Source: an uncultured Parabacteroides sp. (GTDB lineage: Bacteria > Bacteroidota > Bacteroidia > Bacteroidales > Tannerellaceae). Taken from it: 64,000 bases of DNA. The notes beneath the pieces were generated by a model, which saw only the letters and a list, made by a program, of their open reading frames with translations, did not search any database and was not told the DNA's origin. The stretch spans positions 1 to 64,000 of the forward strand of contig CALUZV010000008.1 in assembly GCA_944325345.1 (NCBI GenBank). Direction: 5' to 3'. Made by a program: the position numbers and the translations under genes. How positions within the stretch are numbered: position 1 is the first letter of the stretch; each line of letters opens with the position of its first letter. Below are positions 6,103 to 62,473 of the stretch, in pieces.

Positions 6103-6192
6103 AAAACAAAGTCTTTGTTTTTAAAAACTGAACTTTAGTTTTCACAAACAAAGCTTTAGTTTTTGAAAACTAAGATTTAGTTTATAACTTTG
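6103..6192 (+). promoter_or_regulatory. Promoter of the HU-like gene overlapped by 21-bp-spaced dyad repeats
   Basis: The -7 box TAACTTTG (6185-6192) and TTTG (6162-6165) are spaced by 19 bp, a textbook Bacteroidales promoter. Over and upstream of it, the motif CTTTGTTTT / CTTTAGTTTT / ATTTAGTTT starts at 6113, 6133, 6154 and 6175, that is every 20-21 bp. Successive copies sit in inverted repeats: AAAACAAAG-T-CTTTGTTTT (6103-6121) and TTAGTTTT-TG-AAAACTAA (6156-6173). The second dyad covers the -33 box, which suggests an operator for cooperative binding on one face of the helix. Confidence 0.7.
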
Positions 6193-11721: not shown

Positions 11722-11928
11722 GTTTTGCGGGAACGCTCTGAAAAGTTGTGGAACCTTCCCGCCGTTTTGCGCGGGCTTCCGAAACCTTGTGGGAGCTTCC
11801 CGACGTTTTGCGGGGACGTTCCACAAAGTTGTGGGAGCTTCCCGCCGTTTCGCTGGGGTTCCACAAACTTGTGGGAGCCTCCCGCCATTTTGCGCGGGCA
11901 TTCCACAAAGTTGTGGGAGCTTCTCGCA
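11722..11928. repeat. Five-unit tandem array A1 (about 41 bp units)
   Basis: Units start at 11722, 11764, 11805, 11847 and 11887, a spacing of 42, 41, 42 and 40. Each opens GTTTTGC or GTTTCGC and ends near GTGGGAGCTTCCCGCC. Inside each is the dyad CCACAA-AG-TTGTGG or a variant. The array fills the divergent gap of about 390 bp between the DUF6261-like gene and the lipoprotein genes, and is open in several frames on both strands only because of its periodicity. A sister array with the same spacing lies at 54801-55006. Confidence 0.95.
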
Positions 11929-16369: not shown

Positions 16370-16373
16370 AGAA

Positions 16374-16471
16374 TTGACAATGGAGAATTGACAATTGACA
16401 ATTAATAGATATTCCTTCAATCGTTAATTCTCAATTCTTCATTGTCAATTGTCAATTTTCAATTGTCAATT
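16374..16471. repeat. AT-rich inverted repeat of GACAATT units
   Basis: Tandem GAATTGACAATT-type words at 16374-16403 face TTGTCAATT words at 16442-16471, so the RNA can fold into a long AT-rich hairpin between the pRiA4b-like gene and miaA. There is no T-run typical of a terminator. Such words are common in Bacteroidales intergenic DNA. Confidence 0.7.
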
Positions 16472-16473
16472 GA

Positions 16474-20148: not shown

Positions 20149-20197
20149 TACATTTTCCTATCTCATAGTATGTTTTATATGCAAAAAACATACTCCC

Positions 20198-20395
20198 AAT
20201 AATGGGAAGAGTAGTTTTACATGCAAAAAGCATACTTCTAATAATGGGAGGAGTACTTTTACAAGTGAAAAATATACTTCCAATAATGGGAGGAGTAGTT
20301 TTACATGTGAAAAGCATACTTTTAATAATGGGAGGAGTAGTTTTACAAGTAAAAAGCATACTTCTAATAATGGGAGGAGTACTTTTTCATTTTGA
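20198..20395. repeat. Five-unit tandem array A2 (exact 42-bp period)
   Basis: Units beginning AATAATGGGA start at 20198, 20240, 20282, 20324 and 20366; the last is partial and a degenerate copy precedes the first. Each unit holds an imperfect inverted repeat (GGAGTA-GTTTT facing GAAAAGCATACTTCC). Because 42 is a multiple of three the region stays open on both strands, but the deduced peptides are only the repeat itself. The array fills the 318-bp gap between the TonB receptor and lipoprotein genes, so a joint mRNA would carry a chain of five hairpins. Confidence 0.95.
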
Positions 20396-30084: not shown

Positions 30085-30380
30085 CTGAATACTTCTATTC
30101 AAAGAGGCTGAATAGAGTTATTCAGGGATGCTGAATACTCCTATTCAGGGGGTCTGAATAGCAGTGTTCAGAGGCATTGAATAGAGGTGTTCAATGATGT
30201 TGGATACCGGTATCCAAAGGTGTTGGATAGGGAAGACCAACGGTGTTGTGCAGAGAAGGCCAATGGCGTTGTGCAAGGAAGGCCATTGGCGTTGGTAGAA
30301 AATTAGATGTTCATCCGCGGTTTCGTACGTGTTGATAGAAAATTACGCGGGTGTTGATGCGCGGAAGCGTAGATGTTGAG
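30085..30380. repeat. Tandem array A3 (exact 23-bp period, graded sequence)
   Basis: Nine units start at 30085 and then every 23 bp to 30269 (ending 30291), with more degenerate 22-23-bp units to about 30380. The first four carry the dyad TGAATA-N4-TATTCA or variants (CTGAATACTCCTATTCAGGG). The fifth changes to TTGGATA-N3-TATCCAA, and the next ones to TTGTGC words with GGCCAA. The unit therefore drifts stepwise while the period and dyad position persist. It ends about 40 bp before the first AT-rich polysaccharide gene. Confidence 0.95.
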
Positions 30381-46442: not shown

Positions 46443-48716
46443 ATGAATCTGAAATCATCCCTTACCATTCTGGCATCTGCCTTCCTCCTGACGGCGTATG
46501 CCCCCCAAGTTGTGGCGGATACAGGTCGGACACTTTCTCCGGTGGATTATGTCAATCCGTACATCGGCAATATCAGCCATTTGTTGGTCCCGACTTTCCC
46601 GACAATCCAATTACCCAACAGTTTGATGCGTGTCTATCCCGAGCGGGCCGATTTTACGGGCGACCGACTGAACGGACTGCCGATCATCGTAACGAATCAC
46701 CGCGAACGCTCGGCGTTCAACTTCACGCCGTTCCAAGGCGATGCGAAAGCGCTCCGTCCCGTCGCACCGCTGAGCTATGATTTGGAAAAGATAACCCCGT
46801 ACCGTTATCAGGTCTATCTCGACGAGGCACAGATACACGTCGATTTCGCCCCTTCTCACCAGAGCGCCATTTACCGCCTCCAGTTTGAGCAGAACGAACC
46901 GACGCATCTTGTCTTTAACAGCCGCAAGGGTGCGCTGAAAGTCGAAGGCAATACGGTGCAGGGCTTCCAATATATTGATAACAAAACGAAAATCTATCTC
47001 TACGTAGAGTTGGACAAGACCCCGGAAAAAGCGGGCGTATTGGCTTCCTCTGCCGTGGACTACGCGAAGCAAGCTGCTGAAGGCGAGAATGCCGCCGTTG
47101 TCTTGAGTTATGCTGGCGGAGTAGGGGAGATAGGCGTCCGTTATGGTATCTCTTTGATTGACGAAGCCCAGGCGAAGAAGAACCTGGCGCGTGAAATCAA
47201 AGATTATAGCGTCGCCACCATCGCCGAGGCCGGACGGGCTATTTGGAACGAGACCCTCGGGAAGATAGCCATCGAAGGCGGTACCGAGGACGAGCGTACG
47301 GTATTCTATACTTCGCTTTATCGCACCTACGAACGTCCTGTCTGCCTGAGCGAAGACGGACGCTATTACAGTGCTTTCGACGGGAAGGTACACGAAGACG
47401 GCGGTCGCCCCTTCTACACCGACGACTGGTTGTGGGATACCTACCGGGCAACGCACCCGCTGCGCGTCTTGATAGAGAAGGAGAAGGAGGGCGACATCCT
47501 CAATTCCTTCGTCCTCATGGCTGAACAGATGGGAACGGGCTGGATGCCGACCTTCCCGGAGATTACCGGCGATACGCGCCGCATGAATAGCAATCACGGG
47601 GTGGCAACCATCATCGATGCTTACCGTAAGGGCTTGCGCACCTTCGATTTGTCGAAGGCTTACGATGTTTGCAAGGCGGGCATCGAAGAGAAAACCCTGA
47701 TTCCTTGGTCTGCGAAGCCTGCCGGATGGCTCGATGATTTCTACAAGGAGCATGGCTATATCCCCGCTTTGCGTCCGGGCGAAAAGGAAACCGTGCCGAA
47801 TGTTTCGAAGTGGGAAAAGCGCCAGCCGATTGCCGTAACGCTGGGGACATCGTACGACCAGTGGTGCCTCTCGCAAATCGCGGAAGAACTGGGCAAGGAC
47901 GATGAAGCCAAGCATTACCTGAAGTGTTCCTACAACTATCGCAATGTCTTCAACCCGGATACGCGCTTCTTCCACCCGAAGGATAAGAAGGGAAAATTTA
48001 TTACGCCGGTGGACTACCGTTACGATGGTGGCCTCGGTGCGCGCGATTATTATGATGAAAACAACGGATATATATACCGCTGGGACGTGCAGCACAACAT
48101 CGGCGATTTGGTTCAGCTGATTGGCGGCAACGAAATCTTCTGCGCGGCCCTCGATTCGATGTTCAATACGCCGCTCGGGAAATCGAAATGGGAGTTCTAT
48201 TCGACACTGCCGGACCATACGGGCAACGTCGGGATGTTTTCGATGGCCAACGAACCGTGCCTGCATATACCTTATTTATATAACTACGCCGGCGCGCCCT
48301 GGCGGACACAGAAGCGCATCCGCTCGCTCCTCGACATGTGGTTCCGCAACGACCTGATGGGTGTTCCGGGCGATGAGGATGGCGGCGGAATGACGGCCTT
48401 CGTCGTTTTCTCGCAGATGGGATTCTATCCCGTAACGCCGGGTATGCCTTCCTATAATATCGGCAGTCCGGTATTCCGCTACGTGAAGGTCGAGCTGGGC
48501 GACGGGAAGTATTTCGAAATCAAGGCGCACAACGCCTCTCCCGAGAACAAGTACATCCAATCCGCCCGCCTGAACGGGAAGGAATGGAACCAGCCGTGGT
48601 TCAGCCACGAAGATATCGCCAACGGCGGTGTCCTTGAGCTGGAAATGGGTCCGAAGGCCAACAAGCAATGGGGCGTCGCGACGCCTCCGCCTTCGGCTGA
48701 GGCCATGCCGGAATAA
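46443..48716 (+). CDS. GH92-related protein 3, divergent
   Basis: 757 residues from the ATG at 46443; the GTG upstream in this frame lies inside the hairpin and was rejected. A signal peptide (MNLKSSLTILASAFLLTAYA ending VVADT) is present. Overall GH92 architecture is kept (YVNPYIGNISHLLVPTFPTI, WLWDTYRATHPLRVL, IYRWDVQHNIGDLV). The region that reads GxEDxGxxSAW in its two neighbours is GDEDGGGMTAFVVFSQMGFY here, with SAW changed to TAF, and the EGN-W motif is replaced by a NGYIYRWDV segment. Changed substrate preference or lost activity is possible. Confidence 0.85.
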   Translation: MNLKSSLTILASAFLLTAYAPQVVADTGRTLSPVDYVNPYIGNISHLLVPTFPTIQLPNSLMRVYPERADFTGDRLNGLPIIVTNHRERSAFNFTPFQGDAKALRPVAPLSYDLEKITPYRYQVYLDEAQIHVDFAPSHQSAIYRLQFEQNEPTHLVFNSRKGALKVEGNTVQGFQYIDNKTKIYLYVELDKTPEKAGVLASSAVDYAKQAAEGENAAVVLSYAGGVGEIGVRYGISLIDEAQAKKNLAREIKDYSVATIAEAGRAIWNETLGKIAIEGGTEDERTVFYTSLYRTYERPVCLSEDGRYYSAFDGKVHEDGGRPFYTDDWLWDTYRATHPLRVLIEKEKEGDILNSFVLMAEQMGTGWMPTFPEITGDTRRMNSNHGVATIIDAYRKGLRTFDLSKAYDVCKAGIEEKTLIPWSAKPAGWLDDFYKEHGYIPALRPGEKETVPNVSKWEKRQPIAVTLGTSYDQWCLSQIAEELGKDDEAKHYLKCSYNYRNVFNPDTRFFHPKDKKGKFITPVDYRYDGGLGARDYYDENNGYIYRWDVQHNIGDLVQLIGGNEIFCAALDSMFNTPLGKSKWEFYSTLPDHTGNVGMFSMANEPCLHIPYLYNYAGAPWRTQKRIRSLLDMWFRNDLMGVPGDEDGGGMTAFVVFSQMGFYPVTPGMPSYNIGSPVFRYVKVELGDGKYFEIKAHNASPENKYIQSARLNGKEWNQPWFSHEDIANGGVLELEMGPKANKQWGVATPPPSAEAMPE

Positions 48717-48800
48717 AAAAACGGCTGTTTTTACCTTTACCCCCCACCCCCCTCTGCCCGGAAACGCTCGTTTTTGGCTTTGGAGGGTGGGGGGTAATGT

Positions 48801-49120
48801 CAAAAAAGTGCTTAGAAAGCCTTTTGCACGCCTTCAAAAAGGTGTCTGAGGTCTTTTTTTGCATTTTGCGAGGTTGCAAAGGGCAAAAAAGTGCTTAGAA
48901 AGCATTTTGCACCCCTTCAGAAGGGCTTCTGAGGTCTTTTTCGGCATTTTGCGAGGTTGCAAAGGCCAAAAAAGTGCTTAGAAGGCATTTTGCACGCCTT
49001 CAGAAAGGCTTCGGAGGCCTTTTTCAGCTTTCGAGGGGTGGATAGAAAGGCCGGAATAGTGCTCAGAAGGCATTTTGCACCCCCTCAGAAAGGTGTCTGA
49101 AGAAAAAGCCACGCTTTTCG
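48801..49120. repeat. Tandem array A4 (83-bp period, four units)
   Basis: Units beginning CAAAAAAGTGCTTAG start at 48801, 48884 and 48967 (exactly 83 bp apart); a fourth, more divergent unit begins near 49052. Each has two dyads: CAGAAG-GG-CTTCTG or a variant, and TTTGC-N6-GCAAA, about 40 bp apart, so the unit looks like a fused dimer. The array fills most of the 464-bp gap between the third GH92 gene and aspS. Confidence 0.92.
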
Positions 49121-49142
49121 CACGAAAATGCGCATATCTGTG

Positions 49143-49150
49143 TATCTTTG
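49143..49150 (+). promoter_or_regulatory. -7 box of aspS
   Basis: TATCTTTG directly after the tandem array, 31 bp before the ATG at 49181. No clear -33 TTTG. Confidence 0.55.
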
Positions 49151-49180
49151 CACGCAGAAATTTCTAAAAGATATAATCTA

Positions 49181-50935
49181 ATGTATAGAACAAGAACTTG
49201 TGGAAACCTGCGGCTGGCCGATGAAGGGCTTGTTGTAACCTTGGCCGGGTGGGTTCAAAAGACGCGCAAGATGGGTGGAATGACGTTCGTAGATTTGCGC
49301 GACCGCTACGGCATCACCCAGCTTGTTTTCAATCAAGAGAATAATGCTGAACTCTGCGAACAGGCGAATAAACTGGGGCGCGAGTATGTGATACAGGTAA
49401 CGGGCACGGTGCGCGAGCGCTCGAGCAAGAATCCGCATTTGCCGACGGGCGATATCGAATTGATTGTTTCCGAACTGAATGTTCTCAATACGGCTGTTAC
49501 GCCGCCCTTCACCATCGAAGATGAGACAGATGGCGGGGACGACCTGCGGATGAAGTACCGTTACCTGGACTTGCGCCGTTCCTGCGTGCGCAAGAATTTA
49601 GAGTTGCGTCATCGGATGGCATTCGAAGTTCGTAGCTATCTGGATAAAGAAGGATTCCTGGAAGTCGAAACGCCGGTGCTGATTAAATCTACGCCGGAGG
49701 GTGCGCGCGATTTCGTGGTGCCTTCGCGTATGAATCCGGGTCAGTTCTATGCTCTGCCGCAATCGCCGCAGACGTTCAAGCAGTTGCTGATGGTGTCTGG
49801 TTTCGACCGTTATTTCCAAATCGTCAAATGCTTCCGCGATGAAGACTTGCGTGCCGACCGCCAGCCGGAATTTACGCAGATCGACTGCGAGATGAGTTTT
49901 GTCGAGCAGGAAGATGTCATCCAGACGTTCGAGGGCATGGCAAAGCATTTGTTCAAGACCATCCGTGGCATCGAAATGAACGAACCGTTCCTCCGCATGA
50001 CTTGGCAAGACGCCATGAAATATTATGGTAGCGACAAACCGGACTTGCGCTTCGGCATGAAGTTTGTCGAGCTGATGGACGTGCTGAAAGGCTACGGCTT
50101 CTCTGTCTTCGACAACGCTGCCTACATCGGTGGTATCTGTGCTGAGGGTGCCGCTCACTATACGCGCAAGCAGTTGGATGCCTTGACGGAATTTGTGAAA
50201 CGTCCGCAAGTCGGCGCCAAGGGTATGGTTTATGCCCGCGTGGAAGCCGACGGCAATGTCAAGTCCAGCGTCGATAAGTTCTATTCGCAGGAAGTATTGC
50301 AGCAAATGAAGGAAGCCTTCGGTGCGAAGCCGGGCGATTTAATCCTGATTCTCTCGGGCGACGACGCGATGAAGACACGCAAACAGCTGTCCGAACTCCG
50401 TCTCCACGTGGCCGACCAGCTGGGCTTGCGGGATAAAGACAAGTTCGCTTGCCTTTGGGTGATTGACTTCCCGCTCTTTGAGTGGAGCGAAGAAGACCAG
50501 CGTTTCTACGCGATGCACCATCCGTTCACTTCGCCGAAGCCGGAAGATATTCCGTTGCTCGATACCGACCCGGGAGCTGTCCGCGCAAATGCTTACGATA
50601 TGGTTATCAATGGCGTGGAAGTCGGTGGCGGTTCCATCCGTATCCACGACAGCCAGCTGCAGGACAAGATGTTCCAGCTCCTCGGCTTTACCGAAGAACG
50701 GGCGCAGGAGCAGTTCGGCTTCCTGATGAATGCCTTCAAGTACGGCGCGCCGCCTCACGGAGGATTGGCTTACGGCCTCGACCGCTGGGTTTCGCTCTTC
50801 GCCGGCTTGGATTCTATCCGCGACTGCATTGCCTTCCCGAAGAACAACTCAGGGCGTGATGTGATGATTGACGCTCCGTCTGCTATTGATGATGCGCAGC
50901 TGGATGAACTCTGCTTGAAAGTAGATTTAAAATAA
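49181..50935 (+). CDS. aspS: Aspartyl-tRNA synthetase
   Basis: 584 residues from the ATG at 49181 ([20 protein letters not shown]), the normal start of bacterial AspRS; an in-frame upstream Met overlaps the -7 box. The OB-fold anticodon domain ([20 protein letters not shown]) is followed by class II motifs: motif 1 near [20 protein letters not shown], motif 2 in [20 protein letters not shown], an inserted bacterial GAD domain, and motif 3 in [19 protein letters not shown]. It charges tRNA-Asp. A strong terminator follows, and a similar terminator with a possible aspS-like fragment occurs 2.2 kb further on. Confidence 0.98.
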
Positions 50936-50952: not shown

Positions 50953-51000
50953 GAATCCCGGTTGTCTCCTTGCAAGAGGCGGGCAATCGGGATTTTTTTA
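50953..51000 (+). terminator. Terminator of aspS (copy 1 of a duplicated element)
   Basis: AATCCCG pairs with CGGGATT across an inner stem-loop, followed by seven T. The same element recurs at 53179-53227 with about four mismatches. Confidence 0.92.
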
Positions 51001-52296: not shown

Positions 52297-53151
52297 ATGA
52301 AGAAGATATGTATTATTTTATTCCTTATATTAGGAATAGTAACCGCAAGAGCTTATGATTTTGAAGCGGGTGGAATTTTTTATAACATTGTTTCTGTCCC
52401 CAATCGAACAGTTGTAGTAACTCATTCTTGCGGGGAAGAAGGACCAAGTAAAGATATGTTTTTTGCTTATAATGGAGATGTCGTTATACCTGGTACTGTT
52501 GAATTCCAAGGGAGGACATTCAATGTGGTTGGAATAGGAGTGGATGCCTTTGCGTATTGTTATATAAACTCGATCAAGTTTGCACCGTCTATCAAGTTTA
52601 TTGATGAGAATGCTTTTCGTGAGGCAGAGCTAAAATCTTTAGTTATTCCAGCTTCTATGGAAATAGTTTTATCTTTACCACAAAGAATAAGTGGAGATTT
52701 GATAATAGAGGAAAGCAATGAACCTTTATTTTTTTATGCAAAGAAAGATGGTCATAATACATATTCTGATTATGGTTTAAAAGGTAAGAATGTCTATGTT
52801 AGAAGGACAATAATAGGAGGCCCATACAAAAATAACTGCTGTGTAAGTATTGATAGAAAAACATCTACTGTTGTATTTGGAAAAAAAGTTTCAGCTCAAT
52901 GTATTTATGATCATATAGAACGTAGTTTAGAAGATAGAGAATTTTTTTTCTATCCACTGGGTGAAAATAAAGACCTATATAAACCGGTTCCAATTACCAT
53001 TGTATTAGAACGGAACGTACCTCCTGTAATGCCTAATGAATTTAGTAAGGACAGATATTTAAAAACGAAGATAGTTGTTCCCCAAGCAGCATTAAGTCAA
53101 TATCAAGCTGCTCCTATATGGTGTAACTTCTTTAATTTGGAGGGTTATTAA
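52297..53151 (+). CDS. BspA-type leucine-rich-repeat-like secreted protein
   Basis: 284 residues. The signal peptide is MKKICIILFLILGIVTARAY. A short run of BspA-like repeats follows: DVVIPGTVEFQGRTFNVVGI, GVDAFAYCYINSIKFAPSIK, FIDENAFREAELKSLVIPAS. The C-terminal half loses the repeat pattern and ends in KIVVPQAALSQYQAAPIWCN, which is typical of the cap of BspA family proteins. Such proteins often mediate adhesion. It starts 10 bp after the membrane-protein gene, so they form one unit. Confidence 0.75.
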   Translation: MKKICIILFLILGIVTARAYDFEAGGIFYNIVSVPNRTVVVTHSCGEEGPSKDMFFAYNGDVVIPGTVEFQGRTFNVVGIGVDAFAYCYINSIKFAPSIKFIDENAFREAELKSLVIPASMEIVLSLPQRISGDLIIEESNEPLFFYAKKDGHNTYSDYGLKGKNVYVRRTIIGGPYKNNCCVSIDRKTSTVVFGKKVSAQCIYDHIERSLEDREFFFYPLGENKDLYKPVPITIVLERNVPPVMPNEFSKDRYLKTKIVVPQAALSQYQAAPIWCNFFNLEGY

Positions 53152-53178
53152 ATCACAGCAAACAGGCCGTGACGTGAT

Positions 53179-53227
53179 GAATCCCGGTTGTCCCCTCGCA
53201 AGAGACGGGCAATCGGGATTTTTTTTC
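53179..53227 (+). terminator. Terminator copy 2, aspS-like duplicate
   Basis: Nearly identical to the aspS terminator at 50953-51000 (GAATCCCGGTTGTC, CGGGCAATCGGGATT, T-run). The bases just before it (AGGCCGTGACGTGATGA) resemble the aspS coding stretch at 50853-50870 that encodes GRDVM. Confidence 0.88.
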
Positions 53228-53228
53228 G

Positions 53229-53580
53229 TTTACTGCGGTAAAATGGTTGCCCGCGTCTCAGGGAAGTAATTTACCGCGGTAAAATGGTCGCCCGCGTCAC
53301 AGGGAGACAATTTACCGCGGTAAACGGCACATTGGGATTTCTGGGAAAACTCCGTTGTACGTGTACAAAGAGCCGCCTGCGTTCCGGGGAAGCATTTGTA
53401 CGTGTACAAAGGGCTGCCTGCGTTTCAGGGAAGCATTTGTACGCGTACAAAAGGCTGCCTGCGTTCTGGGGAAGCATTTGTACGTGTACAAAGGGCTGCC
53501 TGAATCTCAGGGAAGCATTTGTACGCGTACAACGGGTCGCCTGCGTCTCAGGGGAGGTCATTGTACGCGTACAACGGAGT
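53229..53580. repeat. Tandem array A5 (41-bp period) with two kinds of palindrome
   Basis: Nine units start at 53229, 53270, 53311, 53355, 53396, 53437, 53478, 53519 and 53561. The first three open with TTTACCGCGGTAAA (one with a T for C), the other six with TTGTACGCGTACAA or TTGTACGTGTACAA; these are perfect or near-perfect 14-bp palindromes. The linker (GGCTGCCTGCGTTTCAGGGA and variants) is shared, so one array carries two alternative sites on the same scaffold. It fills the gap between two converging genes. Confidence 0.96.
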
Positions 53581-53582
53581 TT

Positions 53583-53969
53583 TTATTCTTCTTCCTTCCG
53601 GAATGCGTAATATTTATTGAAAAGAAAATTGAGGGCGGTGTAGAAAACCATCGCGATGAGTTGGTTGTAGTATGGGTCGATGGGGAGCACCCGGTTGAGG
53701 TACATGAGGAAAACCAGTTGGAACAGATAGCAAATGCCGAACGCGATGCCGAAACGCACGGCACTCTTTTCCCACGAATCTTTGGATTGGAACGTCCATC
53801 GCTTGTTCCAAATGAAGCTATTCACTACGCCCGCCACATAACCGATGATATTGGATATTACGTCTGAGCATCCCAATCCTTTCAGCAACACCCAAATTAC
53901 CACGGCTGTAACCACCGTGTTGCTGATGCCTACGATGCCGTATTTAATGATCTCCGTCAGTGTTTTCAT
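53583..53969 (-). CDS. GtrA family membrane protein
   Basis: 128 residues with four membrane segments. The family pattern is clear: IIKYGIVGISNTVVTAVVIW, NIIGYVAGVVNSFIWNKRWT and LNFLFNKYYAFRKEEE. GtrA proteins help carry undecaprenyl-linked sugars or interact with glycosyltransferases that decorate surface polysaccharides. It overlaps the upstream minus-strand gene by 26 bp, so the two are translated from one mRNA. Confidence 0.9.
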   Translation of the reverse strand: MKTLTEIIKYGIVGISNTVVTAVVIWVLLKGLGCSDVISNIIGYVAGVVNSFIWNKRWTFQSKDSWEKSAVRFGIAFGICYLFQLVFLMYLNRVLPIDPYYNQLIAMVFYTALNFLFNKYYAFRKEEE

Positions 53970-54747: not shown

Positions 54748-54800
54748 AGGATAATTCTTTTGGAAAAGAAGAGGGATAAATCAAGAATGGAAAATAAGCA

Positions 54801-55006
54801 GTTTTGCGGGAAGGTCCCGAAAAGTTGTGGGATGTCCAAGACGTTTTGCGCGAGCCTCCACAACGTTGTGGGACGTTCCCGCTGTTTTGCGCGAGGCTCC
54901 CGCAAGGTTGTGGAACCTTCCCGCCGTTTCGCTGGACTTCCACAAAGTTGTGGAACGTTCCCGCCGTTTTGCATGAGGCTTCCACAAAGTTGTGGGAGCT
55001 TCCCGC
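54801..55006. repeat. Five-unit tandem array A6, sister of array A1
   Basis: Units start at 54801, 54843, 54884, 54926 and 54966, spacing 42, 41, 42 and 40, identical to the array at 11722-11928. The unit sequences also correspond: both arrays start CAGTTTTGCGGGAA, and both have GTTTCGCTGG as the start of unit four. As at the first locus, it lies in a divergent intergenic gap, here between the hypothetical gene and galM. Confidence 0.96.
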
Positions 55007-62299: not shown

Positions 62300-62473
62300 G
62301 CTCAAACGCTGGCGGACGGTTGAGCAAGTGGATTCCGACAGATGCTCATCTGTCTGCGGATACTTGAGCATCTATCCACGGATACTTGAGCATCTGTCGG
62401 CGGATAGATGAGCATCTGTCGGCGGACACTTGAGCATCTGTCGGAAACTACTTGCGCAACTATCCGCCGGGCG
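62298..62473. repeat. Tandem array A7 (exact 22-bp period)
   Basis: Eight units start at 62298 and then every 22 bp to 62452, with a partial ninth at 62474. The consensus start is TTGAGCATCTGTCGGCGGAT; the first two and the last units are the most diverged. A strong dyad, GACAGATG-CT-CATCTGTC, spans units 2-3, and GATG-AG-CATC marks the unit at 62408. Array and terminator occupy most of the 423-bp gap between rpiB and recJ; the rest (62474-62630) shows no other feature. Confidence 0.95.

Follow-up and report, generated by a model that had tools for sequence, protein, structure and literature searches.

What is an intergenic 41-bp tandem array that displays two different palindromes on what looks like a common linker: a set of exchangeable cassettes, or repeat DNA under selection for symmetry? 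These were the two options raised by the initial annotation for positions 53229-53580 of the window, a 64,000-nt stretch of a Parabacteroides genome (its aspS is 90-92% identical to the nearest named records, all of them Parabacteroides). The locus holds nine 14-bp cores in a 41-bp repeat, three of the form TTTAC(N4)GTAAA and six of the form TTGTA(N4)TACAA, and the core positions and the repeat spacing bear out the count of units, the two palindrome types and the period as first described. Both palindromes had also been called perfect, which is true of only five of the nine cores; in each of the other four a single position at or close to the centre fails to pair, with a T/G mismatch in the core TTTACTGCGGTAAA at 53229 and a central G/T mismatch in the three copies of TTGTACGTGTACAA. 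Read from the sequence, the two core types differ by three compensated base pairs, a block change that keeps the central CGCG.

The proposal of a single linker scaffold survives in part. The linkers of the two core types, A and B, are homologous (local alignment scores of up to 16, whereas 20,000 shuffles gave 13 at most), but the linker of the third unit is unrelated, so that the locus consists of two sub-arrays. Sub-array A (53229-53324) comprises the three TTTAC(N4)GTAAA palindromes, starting at 53229, 53270 and 53311 with 41-bp spacing and two linkers. It is followed by a 30-bp junction (53325-53354) with no homology to the linkers and a 3-bp register shift, and then by sub-array B (53355-53574), whose six TTGTA(N4)TACAA palindromes start at 53355, 53396, 53437, 53478, 53519 and 53561; the target array ends at 53574. 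Half a period from the core, the linker forms a palindrome of its own, weaker than the core, and in sub-array B the TTGTA palindromes alternate with this second dyad in an ABABABABA pattern. An outer inverted repeat with 9-bp arms brackets sub-array B, the left arm AAAACTCCG (53346-53354) adjoining it and the right arm CGGAGTTTT (53575-53583) flanking the array end. Folded as single-stranded DNA, the target array has a z of -11.1, and none of 100 shuffles is equally stable. A CRISPR identity was rejected, the linkers being themselves repeated and palindromic rather than unique spacers.

The array lies between converging genes, as had been noted: on the left a BspA-type LRR_5 protein (PF13306; 52297-53151, plus strand) and on the right a member of the GtrA family (PF04138; 53583-53969, minus strand), both called with a simple hexamer model. 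Directly before the array, 3' of the plus-strand gene, a terminator-like hairpin with a T-run (53180-53227, plus strand) was recognised by eye; it is not listed by the consensus scan, which called no terminators in 53100-53700. A near-identical terminator hairpin (AATCCCGGTTGTC..CAATCGGGATTTTTTT) stands at 50954-51000, and the two flank a 2.2-kb segment with genes for an 8xMP membrane protein and the BspA-type LRR protein. Both genes are missing in the sister species G003 (about 80% DNA identity, gene order conserved), in which gtrA comes 56 bp after aspS; gain or loss of this segment through recombination between its bracketing terminators is possible.

The window contains further arrays of the same kind. 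Three have a period of 42: one between divergent genes at 54800-55006 with the modules TTCCACAAAGTTGTGGGA / TCCCGCCGTTTTGCGCGA, one homologous to it at 11722-11927, and one at 20167-20390 with the modules AGTTTTACATGTAAAAAG / ACTTCTAATAATGGGAGG. A fourth, with a period of 83 (two times 41.5), occupies 48801-49100 just upstream of aspS. Single-module arrays are found at 6103-6187 (period 21, AAAACTAAGCTTTAGTTTTTA) and at 62347-62458 (period 22, inside a longer inverted repeat). Within 48660-49190 of the window, the 83-bp array stops just upstream of a TATCTTTG sequence preceding aspS, which we take to be of the Bacteroidales -7 type, and at the corresponding site in G003 the aligned flanks are only 50 bp apart. 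At 30085-30294, a 23-bp palindromic array (CTGAATA..TATTCAG) shades along its length into TTGGATA and TTGTGCA repeats, a further case of module change inside one array. Two other repeat types were also observed: a dispersed C-run/G-run palindrome family with TTACCCCCCACCCCCC / GGGGGGTGGGGGGTAA inverted repeats (window about 48735-48795, G000 C1:279673-279933 and C28:7970-8275), in part within period-86 arrays, and a separate 7/14-bp class of the CAATTGTC / AATTGAC type, present at 16372-16472 of the window and at many genome sites (15 intergenic arrays of 13-14 bp in an 834-kb sample).

To place these loci in a wider population, we sampled about a quarter of the 3.27-Mb genome (834 kb) with Tandem Repeats Finder and obtained 130 intergenic arrays, with the proviso that 75 kb of this sample was picked because it carried related arrays. 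About 107 of them belong to the 21/41 period classes and make up 2.0% of the DNA and 15% of the intergenic DNA of the sample; by simple proportion, this extrapolates to about 400 arrays in the whole genome. The period is quantised: intergenic arrays fall at 21-23 (n=35), 40-43 (n=66), 83-86 (n=7) and 125 bp (n=3), and none in the 834 kb has a period of 28-39 or 44-82. A further class at 13-17 bp stands apart from the 21/41 classes. The arrays have little sequence in common, with 184 sequence clusters among 262 arrays. An E. coli comparison gave one array in 100 kb. Other Parabacteroides have both classes, and other Bacteroidales chiefly the 21-23 class; since arrays were sparse in an order-wide sample of 20 genomes, where the dyads of the 20-24 class did not reach significance, the dyad architecture described below is demonstrated for the most part in Parabacteroides.

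Arrays of the 41 class lie in convergent, tandem and divergent intergenic spaces at 18:38:17, near the share of intergenic length of each, and placement thus follows intergenic length and not gene orientation. This bears on whether the arrays act as RNA hairpins, that is, as terminators, 3' end stabilisers or attenuators of adjacent transcripts, a role to which the RNA fold z of about -7 for 41-42-bp arrays and the position of the target array between converging genes, adjoining the terminator-like hairpin, might point. However, 17 of the 73 arrays of the 41 class sit between divergent genes, as length predicts, the target array has no terminator within it, and Rfam families gave no match. Moreover, transcript polarity is absent: stem mismatches on the sense strand of tandem genes are G-U-type in 100 cases and A-C-type in 99, and the two strands of the arrays have equal folding energies; the constraint is therefore not visible at the RNA level. 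We consider RNA hairpins a very unlikely explanation, and the constraint more likely resides at the DNA level, in sequence or shape, although the G/T-type mismatches at the target locus, which RNA would fit too, count against the DNA-level reading. A terminator function of the target array was rejected on the consensus scan, as was membership of intrinsic terminators or RNA 3' hairpins, given the G-U to A-C parity and the lack of any terminator call in 53100-53700.

The internal architecture is a paired one. Across 38 arrays with periods of 39-43 bp, the best dyad pairs at 6.8 of 9 positions (shuffles 5.8), and a second dyad lies exactly half a period off: at offsets of 20.5 and 21.0 bp the scores are 3.63 and 4.65 of 9, whereas shuffles give 2.3. 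Dyads at half the period mean that each 41-42-bp unit is made of two back-to-back palindromic modules of about 18-20 bp each. Most 41-42-bp arrays show two palindromic modules in alternation, about 20.75 bp (about two helix turns) apart. The same module stands at both ends in 54 of 79 two-module arrays and not in the other 25, and some arrays, above all those of the 20-24 class, lie inside a longer inverted repeat (13 of 45 exceed the 95% control level, with 2.2 expected).

These modules are re-used with different partners across arrays and species, which upholds the idea of exchangeable cassettes. Among 93 two-module arrays, 58 module pairs match at 12 or more of 14 arm positions, as compared to 6.3 in symmetry-preserving shuffles; 22 of the 26 recurring module families have more than one partner family, and a further 78 families are singletons. 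Both 14-mers of the target, TTTACCGCGGTAAA and TTGTACGYGTACAA, a genome search for which had been suggested by the initial annotation, are confined to such arrays (reversed-pattern control zero), the former to the target array and the C29 array and the latter to the target array and the C28 array. The TTTTAC(N4)GTAAAA module is partnered by the linker GCCYGCGTCTCAGGG at the target and by CATTTTTCA..TGAAAAATG in C29, C25, C9 and C7, and the TTGTA(N4)TACAA module is partnered by GCCYGCGTCTCAGGG at the target, by CCGCTGGGGCGCAGCGG in C28 and C22 and by CAAAGCGAGGTCGCAAAA in G003. At the target locus two array families meet, one with the TTTAC and the other with the TTGTA module, both on one linker module, and its two palindromes form a chain of module swaps. 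Exchange is also visible inside a single array: at C7:59932 one module is constant while the other runs through TTTTAC.., TTCTGAT.., TTTTGAT.. and TTTCGCT.., with asymmetric intermediates present.

Turning to selection for symmetry, which is supported only in part, we used a split-half test, in which the dyad was set on half of the units and variation measured on the other half. Units differ from one another by 0.34 at the centre and by 0.19 at the adjoining positions, by 0.05-0.11 in the stem, and by 0.21-0.28 outside it; variability in the stems is thus 3-5 times lower than in centres and spacers. This conservation of stems agrees with selection for symmetry, but compensated changes within stems hardly exceed those in shuffles (20 against a mean of 13.1 and a maximum of 20). 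Given that single changes within stems number 311, symmetry is not kept by frequent pairwise compensation. Single-base variants that break it, which had been named beforehand as the observation that would speak for drift, are common among units and count against such selection. Compensatory covariation was accordingly set aside as weak proof of symmetry selection, and arm homogenisation by hairpins is not demonstrated, because the compensated changes lie so barely above the shuffles.

Module centres, on the other hand, flip orientation between units above chance. Counting, in even dyads, only those distinct centre variants in which both central positions are changed, we find exact reverse complements in 22 of 70 cases; in spacer columns the proportion is 26 of 328 (Fisher p 9e-7). 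Among double transversions at centres it is 15 of 22, in 17 sequence clusters, where 1/4 is expected (p 2.5e-5). The evidence is strong but not final, since a flat 1/4 baseline for all double changes gives p 0.14 and the case rests on the double-transversion and spacer controls. Examples include CTTTGCGACCCCGCAAAA and CTTTGCGGGGTCGCAAAG, which occur in one array whose second module keeps its orientation, as well as ATGTTCTCGAACAT / TTGTTCGAGAACAT and TTTTACGCCGGTAAAA / TTTTACCGGCGTAAAA; within the target array no centre flips were seen. Such flips resemble the hairpin-loop inversions reported for chloroplasts (cited in PMC3123225), and template switching at quasi-palindromes is an established type of mutation (PMC3820800). 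Hence the arrays might have a purely mutational origin, arising locally from replication slippage and such template switching, with neither spread nor function. We regard this as rather improbable: modules are common to unlinked arrays, where they have different partners, slippage would not predict sharp period classes, and the compensated changes show no clear excess.

Comparison with the sister species suggests fast turnover. With one genome per species compared, all 12 arrays for which both flanks aligned in one G003 contig correspond to a G003 site without that array. At these sites G003 has a short spacer, except for one intergenic region that holds a different G003 array. No clean target-site duplication was found at these empty sites, the flanks of which are too diverged. 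G003 nevertheless possesses its own array population, at 3.5 per 100 kb for 39-43 bp and 2.6 per 100 kb for 20-24 bp. In the gtrA neighbourhood of three other Parabacteroides there is a 22-bp array (L024, L025 and L027, in G023, G011 and G004), the TTTC/GAAA arms of which are constant by eye while the 8-bp centre differs. No mobilising enzyme for the arrays was identified, which, like the missing target-site duplication, counts against the reading favoured below. Since they are palindromic, intergenic, dispersed and tandem, they could in principle be REPIN/BIME-type elements mobilised by a RAYT (Y1) transposase; however, they share no tag sequence, and the PF01797 protein is absent (zero copies) from both this genome and G003, which makes this explanation hardly conceivable and, with the Y1 transposase missing, excludes it for this genome. 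Loss of SbcCD as the cause of tolerated palindromes was likewise rejected, SbcD being present in both genomes.

The main rival is protein binding of the dyads: the arrays may be binding platforms in which stems serve as half-sites for a dimeric nucleoid-type or regulatory protein, two turns apart on one helix face. The stems are conserved in the manner of half-sites with centre and spacer free, and the 41-42-bp spacing is very tight. TTTTACNNNNGTAAAA occurs at 22 genome sites with a variable centre (reversed control zero), all but one of them, judged from their surroundings, within repeat arrays (the exception is a lone C21 site, and the C24 array is degenerate). In addition, even-centred dyads of the 41-bp class, in 38 independent clusters, have TTY as a weak motif at a distance of 5-7 bp from the centre, with 71% T at position 5. 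Against this, the stems differ so greatly, as the singleton families attest, that no single sequence-specific protein could read all of them; placement is indifferent to promoters; the arrays are missing at the orthologous sites of the sister species; and binding alone leaves the centre flips unexplained. A binding platform is possible, if somewhat doubtful.

We favour, as moderately probable, the reading that the locus is one of many intergenic arrays of palindromic modules, which form non-autonomous, fast-turnover repeat DNA acting at the DNA level rather than RNA hairpins or operators of the neighbouring genes. One module is repeated at 21-23 bp, or two alternate at 41-42 bp; the modules may fold into hairpins or cruciforms, or a dimeric protein may bind them as dyads. 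Template switching or recombination mediated by hairpins could then flip centres and swap modules, and a candidate protein may help the arrays to spread. Helical phasing would fix the spacing, as the 41-42-bp distance suggests, but the period of single-module 21-23-bp arrays, not an exact multiple of 10.5, counts against phasing. A bolder version, to which we give little credence, is that of a new Bacteroidales repeat class set by geometry and not sequence, in which helically phased, interchangeable palindromes undergo in-place centre inversion and are maintained by a dedicated putative enzyme or DNA-binding protein that reads their dyad or hairpin form regardless of sequence.

Taken together, these observations point to an undescribed kind of restless intergenic DNA. 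If this is correct, about 2% of the genome and 15% of its intergenic DNA would be of a repeat kind conserved in spacing and mirror symmetry. Since what is conserved would be a distance of two or four helix turns together with the symmetry, sequence-based repeat finders would register the arrays only as hundreds of unrelated minisatellites. Such arrays could also account for the recurring 22/23/41-nt repeats of Porphyromonas gingivalis, could show in-place palindrome-centre inversion in bacterial DNA, and could offer a natural means of reading cruciform or hairpin activity in gut bacteria.

Among open-access papers we found no earlier description of palindromic tandem arrays in Bacteroidales, and the comparison with known systems is one of partial likenesses. 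In non-coding chloroplast DNA, hairpin-associated small inversions flip loops at conserved stems (cited in PMC3123225), and the Parabacteroides modules similarly keep the stem constant as the loop flips between copies; the differences are that ours occur in tandem arrays of a bacterium, that the loops measure only 2-6 bp and that the comparison is among units, not species. With REP, BIME and REPIN elements the arrays share short, imperfect, extragenic palindromes that are tandem or paired and dispersed, but they have no common head sequence or Y1 transposase and keep a strict module spacing of about 20.75 bp. In P. gingivalis, BrickBuilt (23-nt) and MITE464/PgRS (41-nt) are tandem-repeat MITEs with copy number that varies by strain (PMC4596501). 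Like our arrays (periods 21-23 and 40-43), they occupy dispersed intergenic loci in a member of the Bacteroidales, with tandem units of 22, 23 or 41 nt. Compared by description only, however, the P. gingivalis repeats are single sequence families with a leader and tail and IS5-type terminal repeats, whereas the Parabacteroides arrays comprise about 100 module families with no common sequence, alternate two palindromes within each 41-42-bp unit, and show exchange of modules and flips of their centres. The BrickBuilt unit has no match in this genome or in 393 order-level genomes, and the IS5-type terminal repeats (GAGACC..TTTGCA) match four times in the 64 kb with at most two mismatches, 4.8 being expected, with none at array ends. 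We thus read the Parabacteroides arrays as closest to the 23/41-nt MITE repeats of P. gingivalis and to BIMEs/REPINs, yet as members of neither.
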